Virus record (IMG/VR): IMGVR_UViG_3300042330_000349
Location: 1 to 22,294 of that record
Length of the DNA: 22,294 nucleotides
Reading direction: 5' to 3' (one strand)
Source: a virus
A program made the translations under genes and the position numbers. Every line of letters starts with the position of its first letter. The stretch's first letter is position 1. The notes below the pieces were generated by a model. That model did not search any database. It was not told the origin of the DNA and saw nothing but the letters and a program-made list of their open reading frames with translations. Positions 1 through 19,919 of the stretch are shown here, piece after piece.

Positions 1-627
1 ACCGCCACGCGTCTTGGCTGCCGTCTGCAGCTTGTCGATCAGCAGCAGGGTCATCTTGTCGGTAGACGCCAGCGAGGCCTTGCTGGTCGCGGCGCCGCCA
101 TACAGCGTGTGCGCGGCGTCCGGCGCCTGGAACACCTGCGTGTCCGGAATACCGGTGTAGTCGAGGCCTTCGATGAAATCCTCGTTGATGCCACGCGCAC
201 CGGCTGCTGTCATTGAGTGCAGCTCGTCGTTCCAGCGGCCCCACCACTCGGACATGCGGGCGCGGGCAACCTGGCGCAGGTCGTGCAGCACGCGCTTACG
301 GCTCATCCGGCCGCCGGCCGAAGCGCCGAAACGCACCTGATTGATCAGCAGCGAGTCCTGAGCGAAGCGCAGGGCTTCCTCTTTGCCGTCGAGCCGGTCA
401 TCGCCGTAGGTGGCACGGCCGCGGAGCTGCTTGCTCAGGTCGAAGCGGATGGTGTCGCCCGCCTCGCTGGCCAGATCGGTCAGCACCTGAATGGGGGTAT
501 TGGGGGTCTGCCCGGCACCCTCGAAGCGCGAGCCGAAGTAGCTTTCGCGCACCTGGTCGACGTAGAGAGTGGCAGAGAAACGCTTGACAGCCTGCGGGCT
601 GTTGACGCCATGTGTAGTCGTGGCCAT
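1..627 (-). CDS. Major capsid protein, N4 gp56-like family (C-terminus outside window)
   Basis: Main shell protein of the virus head. Reading the minus strand from the ATG at 627 gives 209 open codons that run off the window at base 1, so the C-terminal part is missing. The translated stretch has the pattern of the N4-gp56-type major capsid family: an early segment with AGDTIRFDLSKQLRG, then GDDRLDGKEEALRF, then a basic helix with MSRKRVLHDLRQVARARM and the aromatic SEWWGRWNDE (residues from about 63 to 138). The start is set by a strong AAGGAG ribosome site 7 bases before the ATG. It follows portal and scaffold genes, the normal head-gene order. Family assignment is from remembered motifs, not a search. 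Confidence 0.85.
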   Translation of the reverse strand, partial: MATTTHGVNSPQAVKRFSATLYVDQVRESYFGSRFEGAGQTPNTPIQVLTDLASEAGDTIRFDLSKQLRGRATYGDDRLDGKEEALRFAQDSLLINQVRFGASAGGRMSRKRVLHDLRQVARARMSEWWGRWNDELHSMTAAGARGINEDFIEGLDYTGIPDTQVFQAPDAAHTLYGGAATSKASLASTDKMTLLLIDKLQTAAKTRGG

Positions 628-632
628 GAATG

Positions 633-700
633 GACTCCTTGAGGGAACAGGGGTCGGCACTCATGCGCCAGATTGATTGGCACCGCGCGCTCATGCGCAC
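633..700 (-). promoter_or_regulatory. Structured leader of the capsid gene: twin AUGA stem-loops plus a ribosome-site hairpin
   Basis: The 87 bases between the CsrA-like stop (715) and the capsid ATG (627) hold two similar short stem-loops on the minus strand. The first is GTGCGC-ATGA-GCGCGC (700 to 685). The second is TGGCGC-ATGA-GTGCCG (670 to 655). Each has a 6-pair stem, counting G-U pairs, and the same ATGA loop, and they are 30 bases apart. A third, imperfect hairpin (655 to 633, one mismatch) would hide part of the AAGGAG ribosome site of the capsid gene. Pairing is seen by eye. A regulatory or RNA-processing role is inferred. No convincing promoter or T-tract terminator is visible here. 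Confidence 0.45.
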
Positions 701-714
701 GGAGTGGCACCAGC

Positions 715-960
715 TTACCCGAAATTGAGCGCGGGTACAGCCAGCTGTGTGGGTTTTGCCGCAGTCGCCATCTGCTTGGGGGCAGATGGCGCTGCAGGCT
801 TGGCGATCTCTGCGCCAGCATCTTCGGCTCGAATGACCCGAACATCGTCGGGGCTGTCGATCTTCAGGCGCGCGCGGGCGCCCGACTTTGCCTCCACGGT
901 GATGACTGCCGCGCCGATCTGGATGGAGTCACCCGGCCGAAGATCCTGATACATCGCCAT
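715..960 (-). CDS. CsrA-like small RNA-binding protein (phage-encoded)
   Basis: An 81-residue protein whose first ~48 residues follow the CsrA/RsmA pattern: an R-P-G-D turn, I-x-I-G, a strand with VITVEAKSG, then ARLKIDSPDDVRVIRAED. This matches CsrA's VGE-xxxIG, TVLGVKG and RIGVNAPKEVAVHREE. The arginine matching CsrA R44 is kept. The usual N-terminal LTRR strand is changed, with Leu and Arg at the R6/R7 positions. CsrA proteins are dimers that bind GGA-containing hairpin loops in mRNA and control translation. The tail (residues 52 to 81) is an Ala/Pro-rich extension absent from ordinary CsrA. The gene lies between scaffold and capsid, so a target among head-gene mRNAs is plausible but unproven. 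A second ATG at 954 could be the start; neither has a strong ribosome site. Confidence 0.72.
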   Translation of the reverse strand: MAMYQDLRPGDSIQIGAAVITVEAKSGARARLKIDSPDDVRVIRAEDAGAEIAKPAAPSAPKQMATAAKPTQLAVPALNFG

Positions 961-970
961 GTCGGTCTAC

Positions 971-1915
971 TCAGTTCCGGCCAGCACGCGGGTGGTCGCG
1001 GAGTCCGCCTTCGGCATCGGCGAGGTATTCCTCCAGCTCCTTGTCGTTCATCCGCGCAATGCGGTGCTCCAGCTCTTCCACCGGCAGGTTGTCGAGCTCG
1101 GCCGTTTTGCCCGTCGACAGCGCCGCAGCGGCCGGCATGTCGGCCAGCGTCGGGCTGGGCCGGCCTTCGGGCGCGCGCGCCGCTGTTGCCTTGGCGATGG
1201 CTTCGGCTTTGTTCGCGGCTGATGGCAGCGCCACGCCGATCTGCTGGAACACCTGCTCGCGCGCCTGCGCCAGCGCATCGGTGTAGGTCCGCCCCTGCCG
1301 TACCAGATCGATCGTGATCGCGTCGAATCCGGGCTTGAGCGCAGGCGATGCCAGCCGCTCGTTGATTGCAGCCTCGGCGCCCGAGAAGAACTCGGTGTAG
1401 GCGCCCGCGAACGCAGCCTGAGCCTGGGCCTGCGACTGTTGCGCCTGCTCCTGCTCGCGTGCGGCGCGGTCCTGCTCGAACCGCTGCACGATCTTGGCCT
1501 CGCGGATATCGTCGCGCTGCTCCATATACTCCGCTAGCTCCAAACCGCCGCCTTCGTAGCGCTCTTTCAGCGCTTCCAGTTCGGCCGCGAAGTCGCGGGG
1601 CTTGGCTTCGGGCTGTGCGGGCTGTGCGGGCTCTGCTGCTGCTGGCTGGGCCTGCGTGCGCAAGGCCTGCGCTGCTTCCGTCAGCGCGTGCGCTGCCTCG
1701 CGCAGCTCGCTTACGCTGTCATCGCGGTCGACCACCGCCGCAGCAGCTGCTGGGGGCACGTCCTCCGCCTTGGCCGCGGCAGGCGCTGCTGCCTGCGCTG
1801 GCGTCGCGTTGCCTTGGTCATCATCGCCCTCGATTGCGGCGCGCTCGGCGTCGCTCAAGTCGTCGTGGTCCAGTCGGTCATCGCGGCTGGTGTCATTCTC
1901 GGGTTCGGTGCTCAT
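971..1915 (-). CDS. Head scaffolding protein
   Basis: A 314-residue acidic, Ala/Gln/Glu-rich protein with predicted long helices and coiled coil, as expected for an internal scaffold that shapes the procapsid and is then released. The first 35 residues are strongly acidic (DD and EE clusters). Residues about 60 to 165 are low-complexity helical sequence with repeated AQAL, QPA and QEQAQ blocks. The C-terminus has charged helices (NLPVEELEHRIARMNDKELE). No catalytic motif is visible. It starts 6 bases after the portal stop with a GAGG ribosome site, and its position between portal and coat genes is the main reason for the call. Sequence alone would not separate scaffold from another coiled-coil head protein. 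Confidence 0.7.
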   Translation of the reverse strand: MSTEPENDTSRDDRLDHDDLSDAERAAIEGDDDQGNATPAQAAAPAAAKAEDVPPAAAAAVVDRDDSVSELREAAHALTEAAQALRTQAQPAAAEPAQPAQPEAKPRDFAAELEALKERYEGGGLELAEYMEQRDDIREAKIVQRFEQDRAAREQEQAQQSQAQAQAAFAGAYTEFFSGAEAAINERLASPALKPGFDAITIDLVRQGRTYTDALAQAREQVFQQIGVALPSAANKAEAIAKATAARAPEGRPSPTLADMPAAAALSTGKTAELDNLPVEELEHRIARMNDKELEEYLADAEGGLRDHPRAGRN

Positions 1916-1921
1916 ACGGCC

Positions 1922-4099
1922 TCACTGCTGGAAGGTGGGTTGCGGTTGAATCTGCGGCGGCTCATAGAGCCTATCCGCTGCGGGCACCAGCGGCACGGCC
2001 GCGGCTGCCAGTCCTGCCAAGTCGAGAGCCTTGCCACGGCCCTCAACACGCTTCTGGGCGGCCTGCGCCCGTAGATTCTCGGCCGCAGCGCGCTCCTTGT
2101 CCGTCTTGGCTGCCAGCAGCGCATCCTGCGCTTGCTGCGCCTGCTGCGCGGCCTGCTGCTGCGCTGTCCGCTCGGCCGCTGCGTTCGGATCTTCGGGCGG
2201 CGCATCGGTGCCATTCATGGCCCGAATGCGGCGGATGAACTCGGCCTTGTTGGGGATGTCGCTCAGCTCGATCGGCAGGTCCATCAGCATGATGGCCATC
2301 TCCGGCGGCAGGCGGCCGATCATCTCGAACAGCTGCTCAGCCATCGCCATGCGCTGCGTTTCTCGGTAGTCCTGCTGGTCGACCACGAAATCCGCGATGC
2401 CGCGGGTGACGTCGTTGCGGAACCACACCTGCCCCGTCTCCGCGTCGAACACGGGCTCGTTGAGCATCAGGAACTCGGCGCCACCGGTGGGCCCAAGGAT
2501 GCGGATCTGCTTCGGCATGGACACAAACTGCTCCATGATGCTGACCACTTTCTGTCCAGACAGCTGGATCGCGAGGCGGTAGTTGTCGAACACCTCAGCG
2601 GTCACCACCGCGCCCTGCTGCTGCTTTGCCAGGATGGCCCGGCCGCTGGTGGCGCCGCTCTCCTGCCCCAGGTTGTCCCGCGTGACGCCCGACGTCTCCA
2701 GAATCTGGGTCTTGCTCTGCTCCGCCAGCTCCAGATGGCCCTTGGCCACATCAGCCATGGTCTTGATTTCGATCTTCGCGAGGCCGCCAGAAGCCAGCCG
2801 CACCTGCCCATTGGGCATGGTGGCCTGCTCCAGCATCTCGTCCTCATCGTCCTCGTGGAATGCGCTGTCCTCGTACAGCACTTGATGCGTCGACATCGCA
2901 AACAGCGCCTTGCCGCGGCGCTTGTTGTAGTCCTCTTGCGGGTCGCGGACCATGCGGATCAGGCCATACGGCATGCCGTCGCGCTCGCGGCGGTAGCACC
3001 AGATCGGCGTGAACGGGAACTGGTTGTGCCTGTACGTGCTGGGCCGCGACTGCAGCAGCACGCCCGGAATCCAGAACGCGCACCACATGGTGTCCGTCAG
3101 CGAGTCGACCAGGCTGATCACACCACGGTCCTTGGCACGCTGGATCTCGTCGGGCAGCGGCTCGGCCGGGTCGAAGGCGGCGCCGTTGAGGTCCGAGAAG
3201 TCCTCAATCAGCGCGCGCACGCGGCGCTGCACCTTCGGCCGCTTGAACCACGTCTCATGCACGCGCACCCGCGTCCGCCAGCGGTTGCTGTTGCCAGTCA
3301 CGCCTAGGAAGCGGCGCCGCGGGTCATCGCGGCGGTCGGCCGTCATGAAGATGCCCGGCAGATCCCACTCGTCTACCTTGTCTTCTTCGGCCTCCGCGAA
3401 CTGCACAGCCGCCGCGCGGAGCGCATCCGCGTGCTGCGGCCACATGGCGATCGCGTAGTCGAGGTCGAGGTACTTGTTCCGGTCGATCCACCGGCAATCG
3501 CGCATGTCCGGGTCGCGTGAGAACGGGTCCCACCACATTTCCTGCCAGCGCTGATGCCGGATGCCCACCTCTTCCTCCAGCGCATCCGTGCGCAGGAACT
3601 CTTCAGTCCAGCCCACGCCCACGCGCACGCTGTCCTTGAACGCCGCGCTGCGCTTCCAGCCGGCCGAGTTGGCATCGCTCACGTACTTCAGCAGGCTGGT
3701 CTTGGCGCCGGCGGCTTCCACGTCCTCGCTGCCGCGGGGAAGCACCTTCCAATCGATCCTGGTCCGGCGCTCGGTGCCCACCACCCACTGGATCGTCGGG
3801 TGCACGATGTTGTAGACCAGAGGCGCCTGGTTGCGTTCTTCGAGCTCAGCGCGTGTTTCCGGGTCGAACTGGTCGCCGTCGTAGAAATCGCTGTCGATGA
3901 ACTGCTCGCGGCGGTTGTCCGCGTGCATGTCGCGGCCCTCGCTCCAGTAGTCCGTGACCAGCCGCAGGATATCGCGGGCCTCTTCCTCGGCTTTGCGCGA
4001 GGGCGTGGCCTCACCGGCCAGCGATTCGACCCGCACACCGCTTTTCGGGTTGTACCGGCTGTCTGGGTCAAACGCTGAGTCGGTGCGGACGTTATCCAT
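1922..4099 (-). CDS. Portal protein, P22-like family
   Basis: Forms the dodecameric ring at one head vertex through which DNA is packaged and ejected. The 725-residue length equals that of the P22 portal. The P22-type N-terminal pattern is clear: the FYDGDQFDPETRAELEERNQ segment (about residues 72 to 91) followed by APLVYNIVHPTIQWVVGTER and R-I-D-W-K-V-L-P-R-G. Later segments such as GATSGRAILAKQQQGA also fit. The last ~80 residues are an Ala/Gln-rich helix that could form the C-terminal barrel known from P22. The start at 4099 overlaps the upstream stop by 8 bases, as elsewhere in this operon. In-frame ATGs at 4105 and 4114 are alternatives, and none has a good ribosome site. Confidence 0.9.
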   Translation of the reverse strand: MDNVRTDSAFDPDSRYNPKSGVRVESLAGEATPSRKAEEEARDILRLVTDYWSEGRDMHADNRREQFIDSDFYDGDQFDPETRAELEERNQAPLVYNIVHPTIQWVVGTERRTRIDWKVLPRGSEDVEAAGAKTSLLKYVSDANSAGWKRSAAFKDSVRVGVGWTEEFLRTDALEEEVGIRHQRWQEMWWDPFSRDPDMRDCRWIDRNKYLDLDYAIAMWPQHADALRAAAVQFAEAEEDKVDEWDLPGIFMTADRRDDPRRRFLGVTGNSNRWRTRVRVHETWFKRPKVQRRVRALIEDFSDLNGAAFDPAEPLPDEIQRAKDRGVISLVDSLTDTMWCAFWIPGVLLQSRPSTYRHNQFPFTPIWCYRRERDGMPYGLIRMVRDPQEDYNKRRGKALFAMSTHQVLYEDSAFHEDDEDEMLEQATMPNGQVRLASGGLAKIEIKTMADVAKGHLELAEQSKTQILETSGVTRDNLGQESGATSGRAILAKQQQGAVVTAEVFDNYRLAIQLSGQKVVSIMEQFVSMPKQIRILGPTGGAEFLMLNEPVFDAETGQVWFRNDVTRGIADFVVDQQDYRETQRMAMAEQLFEMIGRLPPEMAIMLMDLPIELSDIPNKAEFIRRIRAMNGTDAPPEDPNAAAERTAQQQAAQQAQQAQDALLAAKTDKERAAAENLRAQAAQKRVEGRGKALDLAGLAAAAVPLVPAADRLYEPPQIQPQPTFQQ

Positions 4100-4607
4100 T
4101 GGCATCAGGCCCATAGCTGTGCGTCACGGTCAGGCCATCTTCCTCGCACGCATCCAGCCACTGGCGCGCCGTCATGCGCGGGTCGGGCGGGGTACGCACT
4201 AGGTCTTCCGCGAACTCGAACAGGCAGTCCAGCACGCGGTGCGCATCGTCCTTGGTGGCGAATCCGTAGATCTGGTTGGCGATTTTCATCGCTGCAGACA
4301 CTGCCTGATCGCCCTCGCGGATGATCCACAGCGATTCAAGCGGGAACCATACGTGCGAGGTGGCTGGGTCGCGTCGGCGGGCCAGCAGCATGGCCGGCCG
4401 CGCACCCATGCCGAAATCCTTGTAGGCCCGGAACAGCAGCAGATCGCCCTTGCTCCCGATCGCCTTGGCTTGGCTGAGGTCCAGCTTCAACGCGGCCAGT
4501 GTGGGCATCACCTCGGCGTCGAGCACCGCCTGCGCCTCTTGCCCAGGTCGGGCGGCCGCGGCGGACGCGCTGGCGAGGTGTGAACCTGGAACGAAGATCG
4601 TGCTCAT
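4092..4607 (-). CDS. Hypothetical protein between large terminase and portal
   Basis: A 171-residue protein with no motif I recognise. It has a low-complexity N-terminus (ASASAAAARPG), a central part with DLLLFRAYKDFGMGARPAML and HVWFPLESLWIIREGD, and a helical C-terminal half ending near SYGPDANG. No membrane segment or signal peptide is visible. Its ATG overlaps the terminase stop by 4 bases (ATGA) and its stop overlaps the portal start, so it is translated in step with packaging and head proteins. A packaging-accessory or head-completion role is only inferred from place. Confidence 0.75.
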   Translation of the reverse strand: MSTIFVPGSHLASASAAAARPGQEAQAVLDAEVMPTLAALKLDLSQAKAIGSKGDLLLFRAYKDFGMGARPAMLLARRRDPATSHVWFPLESLWIIREGDQAVSAAMKIANQIYGFATKDDAHRVLDCLFEFAEDLVRTPPDPRMTARQWLDACEEDGLTVTHSYGPDANG

Positions 4608-6067
4608 GCGGATTTCCAGCTGCCTTTTTTGGTGGCGCGGCGCCGTGGGCGGCCCTCGCGTGCTTCGTTGGTGACCGTCGCCCGATGCCGATGGCGGGGG
4701 AAGTATCCCTCACCGAACTGCCTGAACGCATCTGCATAGTTGGAGAAACGGTCGTGCTCGGGCTCGTCGGTCCACGATTCGGTGCGTTGGTTCCACTTCT
4801 TGCGGTAGGCATCGAGCGCTGCGATGCCGTCAGCGCAGCCCTGGCGATCCATCCACACATGCGGGAACGCCACTCGTGTTTGCTGGATGCCTAGGGTCAC
4901 ACTTGGCGTCCGTGGAAGCACCTCGAACCGATGCCCAGGCAGTGCCTCTTGAAGCACCATCTTTGCCGTCTTGCCTGTGTGTAGGCTTCGGTTGTCTGCG
5001 TCGTGTGGCAGATAGTGCGTGCCGTAGACGATGCCGTGCTCTTTGGCCACTGCCTGCAGGAAGTTCACGTAGTGCTGCAGCGTCTCTCCGCTGTTCTCGT
5101 ATGCCAGCGGGAACCGATGCGCCAGGGCGGCGAACTGATGAAACCAGATTGATGTCGCATCGTTCATGCCCAGATCCCAGAAGGTGTTCACCGGCACGTC
5201 CACCAGCCAAGGCACGCGCGTGATTCGGTCCTCCTGGCGCACCTTCGCCATCTGGTTGGCGTAGTAGGCGCCCTTGACCGCGTTGCCGCGCCACAGGCCC
5301 AGCAGCAGCGCCTCGCGCACCTCAGGCGGTCGGTCGAGCAGGTTCTCGCGGTAGCCCGTACCGCGCAGGTGTTTGTTGTCGACCAGCTTGGCTGGAATGA
5401 AGGTGATTGCGGTGACCGCCGGCCGCTCGACGTACTCCCCGGCCGCCTCGTCCCAGAACTCGCGATTAATTGTGCGGGTCTGTCGGGTCGGCCCGCCCTG
5501 TTCGTCGATGCCGAAGCGCTCCATGACCCACTTCTGACCGGGCCCGTCCGGGTTGGTGGTGCCCCTGATCACCTGCGGCAGCCGCGGGTCGGTGGTACGA
5601 ATGCGCGTGATCAGGTATTCCCAGCAAAGATCAGTCGACCAGAGCGTCAGCTCATCGAAGCCGACCCAGTTGTATGCGCGGCCGCGGTGCTTGTACCGGT
5701 CGGTGTCGTGCTGAAGGTGGCTCAGAAACACCTTGCCGCCGCCTGGCAGCGTCCAACAGCTCTTTTGCTCGTTGTACTTCGCCCCGGGCATCGCTGCCGG
5801 GTACAGCTCATGGCTGCGGTCGATCAGGTCGGCCAGTTCGGGCGACGTGCGCCGGAAGATGATGGCGCGCCACTTTGGGTTTTGCGGGCCGCCGTACGGG
5901 ATGCCCAATGCATCGATCAGCAGCGCGTCTGACTTGCCGCCGCCAGCCGCGCCGCCGTACAGCACCTCGAAGTCTGAGCACGCCAGGAATTCGGCTTGCT
6001 TTGGCAGCGGCTGCCAGATGATGGGTGGTGCCGCTGGTTTAGTCGTCTCCGTCATCGACTTCGACAT
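4604..6067 (-). CDS. terL: Terminase large subunit (packaging ATPase and nuclease)
   Basis: Motor protein that pumps DNA into the procapsid and cuts the concatemer. It has 487 residues. ATPase motifs: Walker A GGAAGGGKS (38 to 46), Walker B NWVGFDE (133 to 139) and a coupling-type motif GTTNP (169 to 173). The RNase H-like nuclease acids fit Asp298 in FWDLG, Asp356/Asp358 in LPHDADN, and Asp446 in NYADAFR. The basic tail (PRHRHRAT, RPRRRATKKG) may contact DNA. It overlaps the small subunit gene by 29 bases. The start at 6067 is preferred because GAAGG lies just upstream; the ATG at 6055 has a weaker site. All expected active-site residues seem intact. Confidence 0.95.
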   Translation of the reverse strand: MSKSMTETTKPAAPPIIWQPLPKQAEFLACSDFEVLYGGAAGGGKSDALLIDALGIPYGGPQNPKWRAIIFRRTSPELADLIDRSHELYPAAMPGAKYNEQKSCWTLPGGGKVFLSHLQHDTDRYKHRGRAYNWVGFDELTLWSTDLCWEYLITRIRTTDPRLPQVIRGTTNPDGPGQKWVMERFGIDEQGGPTRQTRTINREFWDEAAGEYVERPAVTAITFIPAKLVDNKHLRGTGYRENLLDRPPEVREALLLGLWRGNAVKGAYYANQMAKVRQEDRITRVPWLVDVPVNTFWDLGMNDATSIWFHQFAALAHRFPLAYENSGETLQHYVNFLQAVAKEHGIVYGTHYLPHDADNRSLHTGKTAKMVLQEALPGHRFEVLPRTPSVTLGIQQTRVAFPHVWMDRQGCADGIAALDAYRKKWNQRTESWTDEPEHDRFSNYADAFRQFGEGYFPRHRHRATVTNEAREGRPRRRATKKGSWKSA

Positions 6068-6650
6068 GCGCCTTCACTTCCTGCGGGATGTCGTTCGGCG
6101 CCACCTTTGCCGGCACCACGATGAATCCGACCGGCCCCTCACCAGCCCCGGCCACCTCCAGCTGCTGCTTGAACATCCCGATCTGCTTGCCCATCAGCTC
6201 CAGCGCGTTGACCTTGCTCATGAGCTTGATCCTGATCCCGTGCGCGCCTTCACTGACTTCCACGATCCCGCGCCGCTTGGCCTTGTCCAGCTTCGCCGAA
6301 TCCTTGAGCCGAACGCCCTTCTTGTCCCACTCCACGAAGTCCGTGATGTCGGCGAAGCCGCCCAGTGCCAGCTCGTCCATGATCCGCTCGACCGTCACCT
6401 CAGCGCGTGCCGCGCCCGCCATCGTAATCCGCTTGATCTCAGCCTGGACCGCAGGCTCCGTCAGCAGCTTCGACGCCCGCGACTCGGCGTTGCTCTCCAC
6501 ATACCCGGCCGCGATCGCCGCAGCCTTGCCCTGCCCGCCATTGGCCGCATAGGCGGCGGCGAACGCGGCTTGCTTCAGATTCAGCCCGTTTTGGAGCCGA
6601 CTGCTGTTGCGCAGCTTCTGATGCGGATTGGGTCGCCCACCTCGTGCCAC
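6039..6650 (-). CDS. terS: Terminase small subunit (DNA recognition)
   Basis: Recognises the packaging start site and delivers DNA to the large subunit. The 203-residue protein carries the Terminase_2-type helix-turn-helix pattern at residues about 24 to 72: LKQAAFAAAYAANGG, GKAAAIAAGY, SRASKLLTEPAVQ. This is followed by a helical oligomerisation region with MDELALGGFADITDFVEWD. The C-terminus is acidic (EVDDGDD). The start codon is GTG at 6650, chosen because AAGGAG sits 6 bases upstream; that ribosome site overlaps the end of the Rz1-like gene. It is placed directly before the large subunit, as is usual. Confidence 0.9.
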   Translation of the reverse strand: MARGGRPNPHQKLRNSSRLQNGLNLKQAAFAAAYAANGGQGKAAAIAAGYVESNAESRASKLLTEPAVQAEIKRITMAGAARAEVTVERIMDELALGGFADITDFVEWDKKGVRLKDSAKLDKAKRRGIVEVSEGAHGIRIKLMSKVNALELMGKQIGMFKQQLEVAGAGEGPVGFIVVPAKVAPNDIPQEVKAHVEVDDGDD

Positions 6651-17788: not shown

Positions 17789-18909
17789 GGCGTTGCCTCG
17801 AACAGGTCAGGGTGCGGGCGCTCTGCCCGGATGCGTGCGTCAGCCATCGCGGAGTACTCGGGCTTGATCTCCAGCAGCACCGCGTCGCGCCCGTTGCGCT
17901 GGCACACCAGCCCGGTAGTGCCAGCACCGGCGAACGTGTCGAGCACCTTGCCGCCCTTGGGGCAGCCGGCCAGCACGCACGGCTCGATCAGGGCAGGCGG
18001 GAAGGTGGCGAAGTGGGCGCCCTTGAATGGGCGGGTGGCGACAGTCCAGACGCTGCGGCGGTTGCGGGTTTCGGTATCGAACTCCGATTCAGCGCGGTCA
18101 GGCCGATGCGTCCCGACCGATTGCCCAGGGATCGCCTGCGCACGCTTGCTGCCTTCGCGCTTGAAGGTGTCGCGCTTGCTGCGCGGCCTCCACGGCTCGC
18201 TGCTGCCGGCGCCGCCAGACATGGGCATGTGAGCCGCCCCGCCCTGTCTGCCCGCGAATCCGTTGCCCGCTGGCGTCTGAGCAACCGCAGGCTCCCGCAT
18301 CGCCTCAGCGTCGAAGTAGTACCTCGGCGACTTCGACAGCAGGAACAGGTACTCGTGCGCCTTCGTGCAGCGATCGGTGACGCTCTCCGGCATCGGGTTG
18401 GGCTTGGCCCAGATGATGTCCTGCCGCAGATACCAGCCGTCCGCCTGCAGGGCGAAGGCGACGCGCCAGGGGATGCCCATCATGTCCTTGGGCTTGAGGC
18501 CGGTTTGCGCCTTCGTGCGGCCGATTCCGGTGTCCCCATGCAGGGCGCGTGCGTGCTTACCGCCACTGCTGCCGCCCCACTTGCCGTCGTTGGCATAGCT
18601 ATCCCCGAAGTTTACCCACAGCGTGCCGTCGGCCCGGAGTACTCGACGCACTTCGCGGAACACCGCGACGATGTGGCCGATGAAGGCCCACGGGTCGGAT
18701 TCCAGGCCGAGGCAGCAGGCCTGCGCCGGCACCGCGATCACTGGGAGGCCGGGCATCGGGCTGAACTCAACAGCCGGCCAATGCGTCGGCGGCAGGCCGT
18801 AGTCGCGCAGACCGAAGTACGGCGGGCTCGTGATGCAGCAGTGCACGGACTCTGCCGGCAGCGTGCGCAGGGTGTTGAGGCAGTCGCCGGTGATGATCTC
18901 GACGGTCAT
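17785..18909 (-). CDS. Orphan DNA methyltransferase (N4-cytosine or N6-adenine, beta-type order)
   Basis: A 374-residue site-specific methyltransferase that moves a methyl group from S-adenosylmethionine to an exocyclic amino group in DNA. The catalytic motif IV is TSPPY (27 to 31) and the AdoMet-binding motif I is FAGAGTTG (326 to 333), giving the catalytic-first order of beta-type enzymes. The central segment with IWAKPNPMPESVTDR and HEYLFLLSKSPRYYFD is also typical. No restriction nuclease is next to it, so it probably protects phage DNA from host restriction or marks it. SPPY favours cytosine-N4 but does not exclude adenine. The start at 18909 overlaps the replication gene stop as ATGA. 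Confidence 0.9.
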   Translation of the reverse strand: MTVEIITGDCLNTLRTLPAESVHCCITSPPYFGLRDYGLPPTHWPAVEFSPMPGLPVIAVPAQACCLGLESDPWAFIGHIVAVFREVRRVLRADGTLWVNFGDSYANDGKWGGSSGGKHARALHGDTGIGRTKAQTGLKPKDMMGIPWRVAFALQADGWYLRQDIIWAKPNPMPESVTDRCTKAHEYLFLLSKSPRYYFDAEAMREPAVAQTPAGNGFAGRQGGAAHMPMSGGAGSSEPWRPRSKRDTFKREGSKRAQAIPGQSVGTHRPDRAESEFDTETRNRRSVWTVATRPFKGAHFATFPPALIEPCVLAGCPKGGKVLDTFAGAGTTGLVCQRNGRDAVLLEIKPEYSAMADARIRAERPHPDLFEATP

Positions 18910-19919
18910 GCGCCTGGCTCCAGTGGCTCGTCGGACACGGTGCGCTCGAAGATGCGCGTCATGACGTCGGGGTGGGTGAGGTTCTTGAAGTCGGGGGTCC
19001 ATCCCTCGTGCCCGCGACCAGGCGGAGCGCGGCCGGACCAGAACGGATCCTGGGCGCAGGCGTCGAAGTAGGTCGCCCAGAAGTCGGGCGTGATGCGCTT
19101 GCTGCCGTTCATCTTTTCGCAGATCAGCGTCGCGACACCGATGCAGCGCTTCACCTGCTTGCGGCGCTGTGGCGTCAGCAACACCACGGCCGGCAGCAGC
19201 CCGGTGGGTTTCGCCAGCGCTGCGTTGTATGCCGCGATCGCCTCGGCCGTGATCTCGTGGGCCCTGCGCTCTTTCGGGTCTGCAGGCAGATCTGCCGGCC
19301 GTTCGCTGTCATCGGCTCCGTCCGATGACGAATCTGAGCGAAGCGAAGATAGCTCTTGCTCTTGCTTTGGAGACGGAGACGGAGACGGAGACGGAGACGG
19401 AGACGGAGACGGAGACGGAGACGGAGACGGGGCACTGCTAGAAGAGTGCTCAGGAGTGCTACTAGCACTTTCTGGCACTGCTAGATTGGTGCCAGGAGGG
19501 TGCGTGTCGCTTCCTTCGAGCAAGCGCGCGGCATACTCCGGCATCAGTCGAGCAGCCTCGCGGCGTCCTCGTTGCTTGCACAGAGCAGCCCACCTGGCCT
19601 TTTCGGATCGCGCCTCAGAGCCGGCCGCCCACGGGTTGTGCTCGGCCCAGTCGTGCAGCCGGCGCTCGCCGATATCGCCTTCAAGAAAGCGGACCTCGAC
19701 CAGGGTTTTTACCAGCGTTCCGGGCTCGCCTTTCCAGTCAACGGCGTCCTCGATGTCCTCGTCTTCCATGCCGGCCAAGTCGCCGTCTGGGCGGTGCTGC
19801 GCGGCGTACAAGAACAGCCAGACCAGGGCGAGAACACCCGAATCCCCCAGCCGGCGCTTCAACTTCTTCGTCTTGTGGTGCCCCGGCAGGCCCACTGCGA
19901 TACGGGCGTCGTCATTCAC
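18906..19919 (-). CDS. Replication-organiser / helicase-loader candidate with Pro-Ser repeat linker
   Basis: A 337-residue protein in three parts. The N-terminal ~135 residues look like the winged-helix part of phage replication initiators (GLPGHHKTKKLKRRLGDSG, VWLFLYAAQHRPDGDLAG). The middle is a flexible Ser-rich linker containing ten Pro-Ser pairs coded by a tandem hexanucleotide. The C-terminal ~110 residues include ITPDFWATYFDACAQDPFWSG and HEGWTPDFKNLTHPDVMTRIFE, recalling the end domain of helicase-loading proteins. Such proteins bind the origin and recruit the helicase, here the DnaB-type protein. The start is GTG at 19919, after a GGGGA element. The specific function is inferred. Confidence 0.65.
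   Translation of the reverse strand: MNDDARIAVGLPGHHKTKKLKRRLGDSGVLALVWLFLYAAQHRPDGDLAGMEDEDIEDAVDWKGEPGTLVKTLVEVRFLEGDIGERRLHDWAEHNPWAAGSEARSEKARWAALCKQRGRREAARLMPEYAARLLEGSDTHPPGTNLAVPESASSTPEHSSSSAPSPSPSPSPSPSPSPSPSPSPKQEQELSSLRSDSSSDGADDSERPADLPADPKERRAHEITAEAIAAYNAALAKPTGLLPAVVLLTPQRRKQVKRCIGVATLICEKMNGSKRITPDFWATYFDACAQDPFWSGRAPPGRGHEGWTPDFKNLTHPDVMTRIFERTVSDEPLEPGA
19369..19428. repeat. Tandem hexanucleotide repeat, GGAGAC x10
   Basis: Ten perfect copies of GGAGAC (plus strand) in a row, followed by a partial GG. On the minus strand the same array reads GTCTCC and encodes Pro-Ser pairs in the linker of the replication-organiser candidate. The 6-base unit keeps the reading frame, so copy number changes would alter linker length, not disrupt the gene. 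The neighbouring sequence is also Ser-rich. Confidence 0.95.

Follow-up and report, generated by a model that had tools for sequence, protein, structure and literature searches.

The window analysed here, a 22,294-nucleotide stretch of viral DNA (positions 1 to 22,294 of IMG/VR record IMGVR_UViG_3300042330_000349), encodes a small CsrA-like protein directly upstream of the major capsid gene, and the leader between the two genes carries a conserved hairpin, P1, with a small GA-containing loop. This protein probably binds and controls such leaders, whether it activates or represses them. The relevant features, numbered by position in the window, are as follows.

1 to 627, minus strand: start of the major capsid protein gene (complete in L005 at 5334-6443, PF13252 Phage_capsid_3)
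625 to 632, minus strand: 3' strand of the alternative helix P2, CAUUCAUG, covering the capsid start codon (627-625)
635 to 640, minus strand: AAGGAG, the capsid gene's ribosome-binding site
655 to 670, minus strand: hairpin B of the leader, the family-wide P1, UGGCGC-[AUGA]-GUGCCG
658 to 665, minus strand: 5' strand of P2, CAUGAGUG, overlapping the loop and the 3' arm of hairpin B
683 to 702, minus strand: leader hairpin A, CCGUGCGC-[AUGA]-GCGCGCGG, 8 bp
715 to 960, minus strand: CsrA-like protein gene, 81 amino acids, ATG to TGA, with profile matches and a predicted fold
971 to 1915, minus strand: scaffold-like protein, phrog_8246, preceding the CsrA-like gene
1922 to 4114, minus strand: portal protein, phrog_156

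An earlier note had proposed an 81-residue protein of CsrA type at this site; the open reading frame is genuine, its strand can now be given as minus (960-715), and the profile matches and the fold search agree on its identity. The window protein matches PHROG 8397 'CsrA-like regulator' with E = 4e-12 and Pfam CsrA (PF02599) with E = 1.3e-5 and 25.4 bits, slightly below the 27-bit cut-off, which is exceeded by the family members L003, L009, L010, L073, L083, L092, and L121. The family profile matches RsmE (PDB accession number 2jpp; E = 1.8e-9) and E. coli CsrA (1y00; E = 2.9e-7). The scores against the NCBIfam equivalog models NF002469 and TIGR00202 are below their cut-offs (18.2 of 73 and 13.9 of 70.1 bits, respectively), so the protein is a divergent member of the family and not an ortholog of true CsrA. 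In the AlphaFold2 monomer, residues 1 to 40 have pLDDT values of 90-94 and the tail has values below 65; a search of the PDB with this predicted monomer gave CsrA, RsmE, or RsmA chains as all of the best 15 matches. Homology to CsrA is therefore secure on the basis of PHROG, the family profile, the sister proteins, and the fold search. Alignment with E. coli CsrA confirmed that the N-terminal RNA-contacting strand is altered (L4 to Q, T5 to D, and R6 to L) and that R44 is kept, as is R7. R44 is lost in some relatives, i.e., it is replaced by C in SopranoGao, G in Itty13, and V in L077. The Ala/Pro tail (residues ~47-81) is common only to the window protein and its close sister in L049. When loci were searched with the window protein alone, the sole match was a copy of the same phage, and family alignments were required.

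The placement of the gene between the scaffold and capsid genes was also correctly described (phrog_8246 on one side and the PF13252-type capsid gene on the other). The order of portal, hypothetical/scaffold, CsrA-like gene, short gap, and capsid recurs in Lessievirus, Pavtokvirus, Parlovirus, Ittyvirus, Lastavirus, and Skulduggeryvirus; relatives of the CsrA-like gene were found by tblastn in 25 phage records, and of 76 capsid-anchored loci, 56 have a CsrA-like ORF before the capsid gene, mostly at a distance of 85-130 nt. The combination of a PHROG 8397 profile match and a scaffold/capsid position is that of the Bcep22-like phages, in which BcepIL02 gp49, JC1 gp47, CSP3 orf23, and PEp14 gp9 belong to the same family, with the portal-scaffold-CsrA-capsid order and a similar gap before the capsid gene, whereas the window protein shares 27-38% identity with these named proteins and has a longer Ala/Pro tail. 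The gene is classed as a moron in the papers on JC1 (PMC9144972) and CSP3 (PMC10269572), and a review of CsrA tabulates phage csrA alleles and mentions Burkholderia hosts without csrA (PMC7366521). The gene order in the named genera and these papers thus indicate that the gene and its pre-capsid position in Bcep22-like phages are already described. No RNA target of the Bcep22-like regulators is named in the JC1 and CSP3 literature, and searches of the open-licence literature gave no phage CsrA acting on a capsid gene or another late gene. The novelty appears to be the likely target, a conserved hairpin in the capsid-mRNA leader; the hairpins and the wider set of late-gene leaders are absent from the earlier note. 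The CsrA-like gene of Erwinia phage Stean (L014 2998-3189) is unannotated in its record.

The consensus capsid-leader hairpin on the sense strand is GCGC-ANGA(N)-GYGC. Its core is present in 60 of 64 distinct leaders, with CGC-N-N-GA located 34-69 nt upstream of the capsid start, and the remaining four have GGGC/GGUGC-AUGGAN hexaloops (ANGGAN), which is the classical CsrA form. The loop varies in length from 4 to 6 nucleotides; G3 and A4 are constant, and N2 is variable. The window contains two AUGA hairpins in tandem (683-702 and 655-670), and the same pair is found in L049, where hairpin A is CCGCGCGC-[AUGA]-GCGCGCGG; a U-G pair of the window stem is C-G in this sister, i.e., pairing is preserved. 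L050, L051, and L247 also have two hairpins each, the first with an AUCA or AAGA loop. The outer stem pairs of P1 covary across 39 clusters (cognate score, 1.97 vs 1.27 for swapped arms; sd, 0.13; 0/20000 permutations). Of 85 leaders, 72 contain the motif, compared with 54 matches in the remainder of 1.31 Mb; since leaders served to define the motif, this figure is descriptive. The predicted folding of the window leader is barely better than that of shuffled versions of it (z = -1.63). Rfam gave no match for window positions 500-1100 at E<=1 and, at the gathering threshold, none in the leaders of ten relatives, and no canonical ANGGAN hairpin was seen at the leader position in nine csrA-positive genomes scanned. 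A loose scan for any 5-bp stem with an ANGA loop was too noisy, and the CGC/GYG core was therefore required.

An inverted repeat in this position might also be a DNA operator for late transcription, as could be suspected from the promoter-like TTGCAT-N17-GATAAT directly upstream in many leaders. We regard this as extremely unlikely, because the G-U wobble conserved at the second stem pair (33/36) argues for RNA, and the loop length of 4-6, the sense-strand orientation, the fixed distance to the start codon, and the pairing with the start region described below are likewise at odds with an operator. The promoter-like box directly precedes the hairpin in L001, L009-L011, and others; in the window leader it is not evident by eye.

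The CsrA-like protein most likely binds the P1 loop (A-N-G-A or A-N-G-A-N on a CGC/GYG stem) before the capsid gene, and the tandem hairpins of the window would suit a two-site dimer, which might bridge them. The full GGA of classical CsrA sites is missing from many loops, AUGA of the window among them, and the contact residues L4, R6, and in some cases R44 differ; the specificity of binding would therefore have to be altered. Membership in the CsrA family follows from homology, and that phage late mRNAs are the targets is what we infer. The proposal in the earlier note that the protein tunes capsid translation is thus indirectly well supported as far as a conserved, covarying leader hairpin that tracks the gene is concerned, and binding is the presumed part.

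The loop and 3' arm of P1 can alternatively pair with the final bases before the start codon, and through the codon in the AUGA class, to form P2. Cognate partners score 17.1 in this pairing vs 11.6 for swapped ones (sd, 0.61; 0/20000 permutations), and the signal persists within loop classes (0/20000). P1 and P2 are mutually exclusive in all 24 clusters examined; in 23 of them, P2 has the greater predicted stability; in the window, P2 has only 8 bp, including one G-U pair. The mutual exclusion and the predicted stability of P2 lead us to a mild preference for activation over repression, which rests on prediction: protein on P1 would keep the start region open and permit translation of the capsid gene after synthesis of the portal-scaffold-csrA message.

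It is possible, though we think doubtful, that the dimer instead bridges P1 and the GGA of the ribosome site (or a second hairpin) and blocks the ribosome, as B. subtilis CsrA does on flagellin mRNA, with release upon titration of the protein, perhaps by assembling capsids. The spacing of ~20-30 nt between the loop and the ribosome-site GGA, the tandem hairpins in the window group, a hairpin of phage USP_25 that contains GGAG right before a start, and the presence of JC1 gp47 in virions, detected by one peptide (PMC9144972), are all compatible with such a block. However, the conserved P2 already closes the start region, which binding to P1 would open.

The hairpin largely accompanies the gene. 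It is carried by 21 csrA-positive genomes, and six capsid relatives (five distant ones and the L106 type) have neither a CsrA-like gene nor a capsid-leader hairpin. Most prophages that apparently lack csrA carry it at a distance from the capsid gene, and both hairpin and csrA are retained in prophages in which the two genes are separated. In such split loci (L055, L058, L066-L069, L078, L086, L138, and L139), csrA follows portal-scaffold, and the capsid gene lies elsewhere, adjoining a divergent endolysin gene whose leader bears the same hairpin; in several of them, a tRNA and an extra hairpin are located 3' of csrA, which suggests integration between the csrA and capsid genes. Bacterial genomes were scanned with a capsid profile, a CsrA profile with very divergent members being unusable, and P1 was found in 30 of 34 prophage leaders, a few of which belong to elements also in the viral set. 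At csrA-anchored loci, P1 occurs shortly downstream in 26 of 31; of the other five, two (L041 and L047) have a CsrA gene of a different type, and three are non-adjacent to a capsid gene or cut off. L257 has a CsrA-like gene and no hairpin, and Mwe-JY07 has the hairpin and a CsrA-like ORF with E = 0.16 only.

The type of loop also follows the type of protein. R44 is found in 15 of 20 clusters of GGA-loop partners vs 2 of 13 with other loops (p = 0.0013); this association, like the co-occurrence of gene and hairpin, carries no correction for phylogeny. The K-x-G motif is present in the partner proteins of short loops and missing from those of the four hexaloops, and in four phages, a CsrA closer to the canonical type goes with canonical ANGGAN hairpins. 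It is unlikely, on these grounds, that the hairpins are a regulatory or stabilising RNA element read by another factor (a host protein, an RNase, or the ribosome) and that csrA is an unrelated neighbour, a moron: hairpin and gene co-occur across genomes even when physically separated, and canonical loops go with more canonical proteins. Vibrio phage douglas 12A4 would fit such a factor, since its 9-bp P1-like hairpin (L147 ~4567-4577; AAGA loop; 37 nt upstream of the virion gene that follows the capsid gene) occurs without a detectable CsrA-like gene. The same correspondence makes it very unlikely that the protein has given up RNA for a role in the virion or its assembly, a loss that the earlier note had considered and that the RNA partner disfavours, yet the loss of R44 in some members, the head genes as neighbours, and the single JC1 gp47 virion peptide, which the JC1 authors themselves call weak (PMC9144972), would fit such a role. 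A conserved matching RNA element that covaries in loop type with the protein speaks against it.

The hairpin is not confined to capsid leaders. A genome-wide pattern search of 31 records gave 40 inspected non-capsid hits, 26 of which are in a leader position (28-45 nt before a start, with a ribosome site and an ORF of 90+ amino acids) vs 1.9% of random positions (p = 2e-35); these 26 sit 31-42 nt upstream of the gene starts. The downstream genes include those for a virion structural protein (phrog_8003), a protein internal to the virion (phrog_511), virion proteins of the cell-wall-hydrolase type (phrog_938), and a muramidase endolysin. In the split loci, the divergent endolysin genes that adjoin the capsid gene have clearly different sequences and the hairpin in common. 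The non-capsid leaders pair with the start region above swapped ones (19/20000 permutations as high). In phage USP_25, the CsrA-like gene is 3' of the structural genes, two hairpins precede the genes just downstream of csrA, and a GGAG directly before a start lies inside one of them. The late region of the window phage, 23.7-43.6 kb in the full-length copy, was found to contain no additional leader hairpin. The hairpins before virion and endolysin genes in relatives suggest that the protein would act on late-gene translation beyond the capsid gene.

The host genomes that carry such prophages mostly lack a CsrA of their own: it is absent in 18 of 19, Luteimonas being the sole exception, and other matches are weak or the prophage gene itself. 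Takeover of host Csr/Rsm targets, which the earlier note had raised, is thus unsupported for most hosts examined and cannot be a general role. Pseudomonas, Erwinia, and Klebsiella are members of groups known for CsrA. That these are among the hosts, together with the CsrA homology, leaves some room for a protein that acts on host Csr/Rsm RNAs and reprograms the host; we consider this quite unlikely in view of the 18 genomes without CsrA and the capsid-adjacent position preserved across genera. It is reasonably likely that the CsrA-like protein serves a private, post-transcriptional late-gene regulon (capsid, virion proteins, and endolysin) with a two-state leader and a shift from ANGGA to ANGA loops, in hosts mostly without CsrA.

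In its predicted fold, in R7 and R44 of the window protein, and in the small GA-loop hairpin near the ribosome site, the phage system resembles bacterial CsrA/RsmA/RsmE, and four relatives have true ANGGAN loops. It differs in that most phage loops fall short of the bacterial ones by one or two bases (ANGA/ANGAN), D/E and L/I usually stand in place of T5 and R6, the K-x-G turn is fixed, and the targets would be phage late genes. CsrA of B. subtilis represses hag, which encodes flagellin, through classical GGA sites; in contrast, the phages have ANGA loops and an alternative helix that sequesters the start. In both systems, the leader concerned belongs to a protein that is made in bulk and assembles itself (PMC6529632). 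A FliW partner, as in B. subtilis, was not found here. Phage late genes are usually viewed as transcriptionally switched, and a viral RNA-binding protein that sets capsid and lysis translation through a common hairpin would, if true, be an unusual layer of control. A gene hitherto termed a moron gains a testable job, and the loops ANGGAN, ANGAN, and ANGA with matching protein changes offer a natural series for the evolution of CsrA specificity.

In the IMG/VR contig L047, a canonical-looking csrA lies directly 5' of a flagellin gene, a bacterial parallel to the csrA-capsid arrangement. Elsewhere in the window, positions 18906-19919 (minus strand) encode a predicted protein of 337 amino acids that includes a long Pro-Ser (PSPSPS...) repeat.
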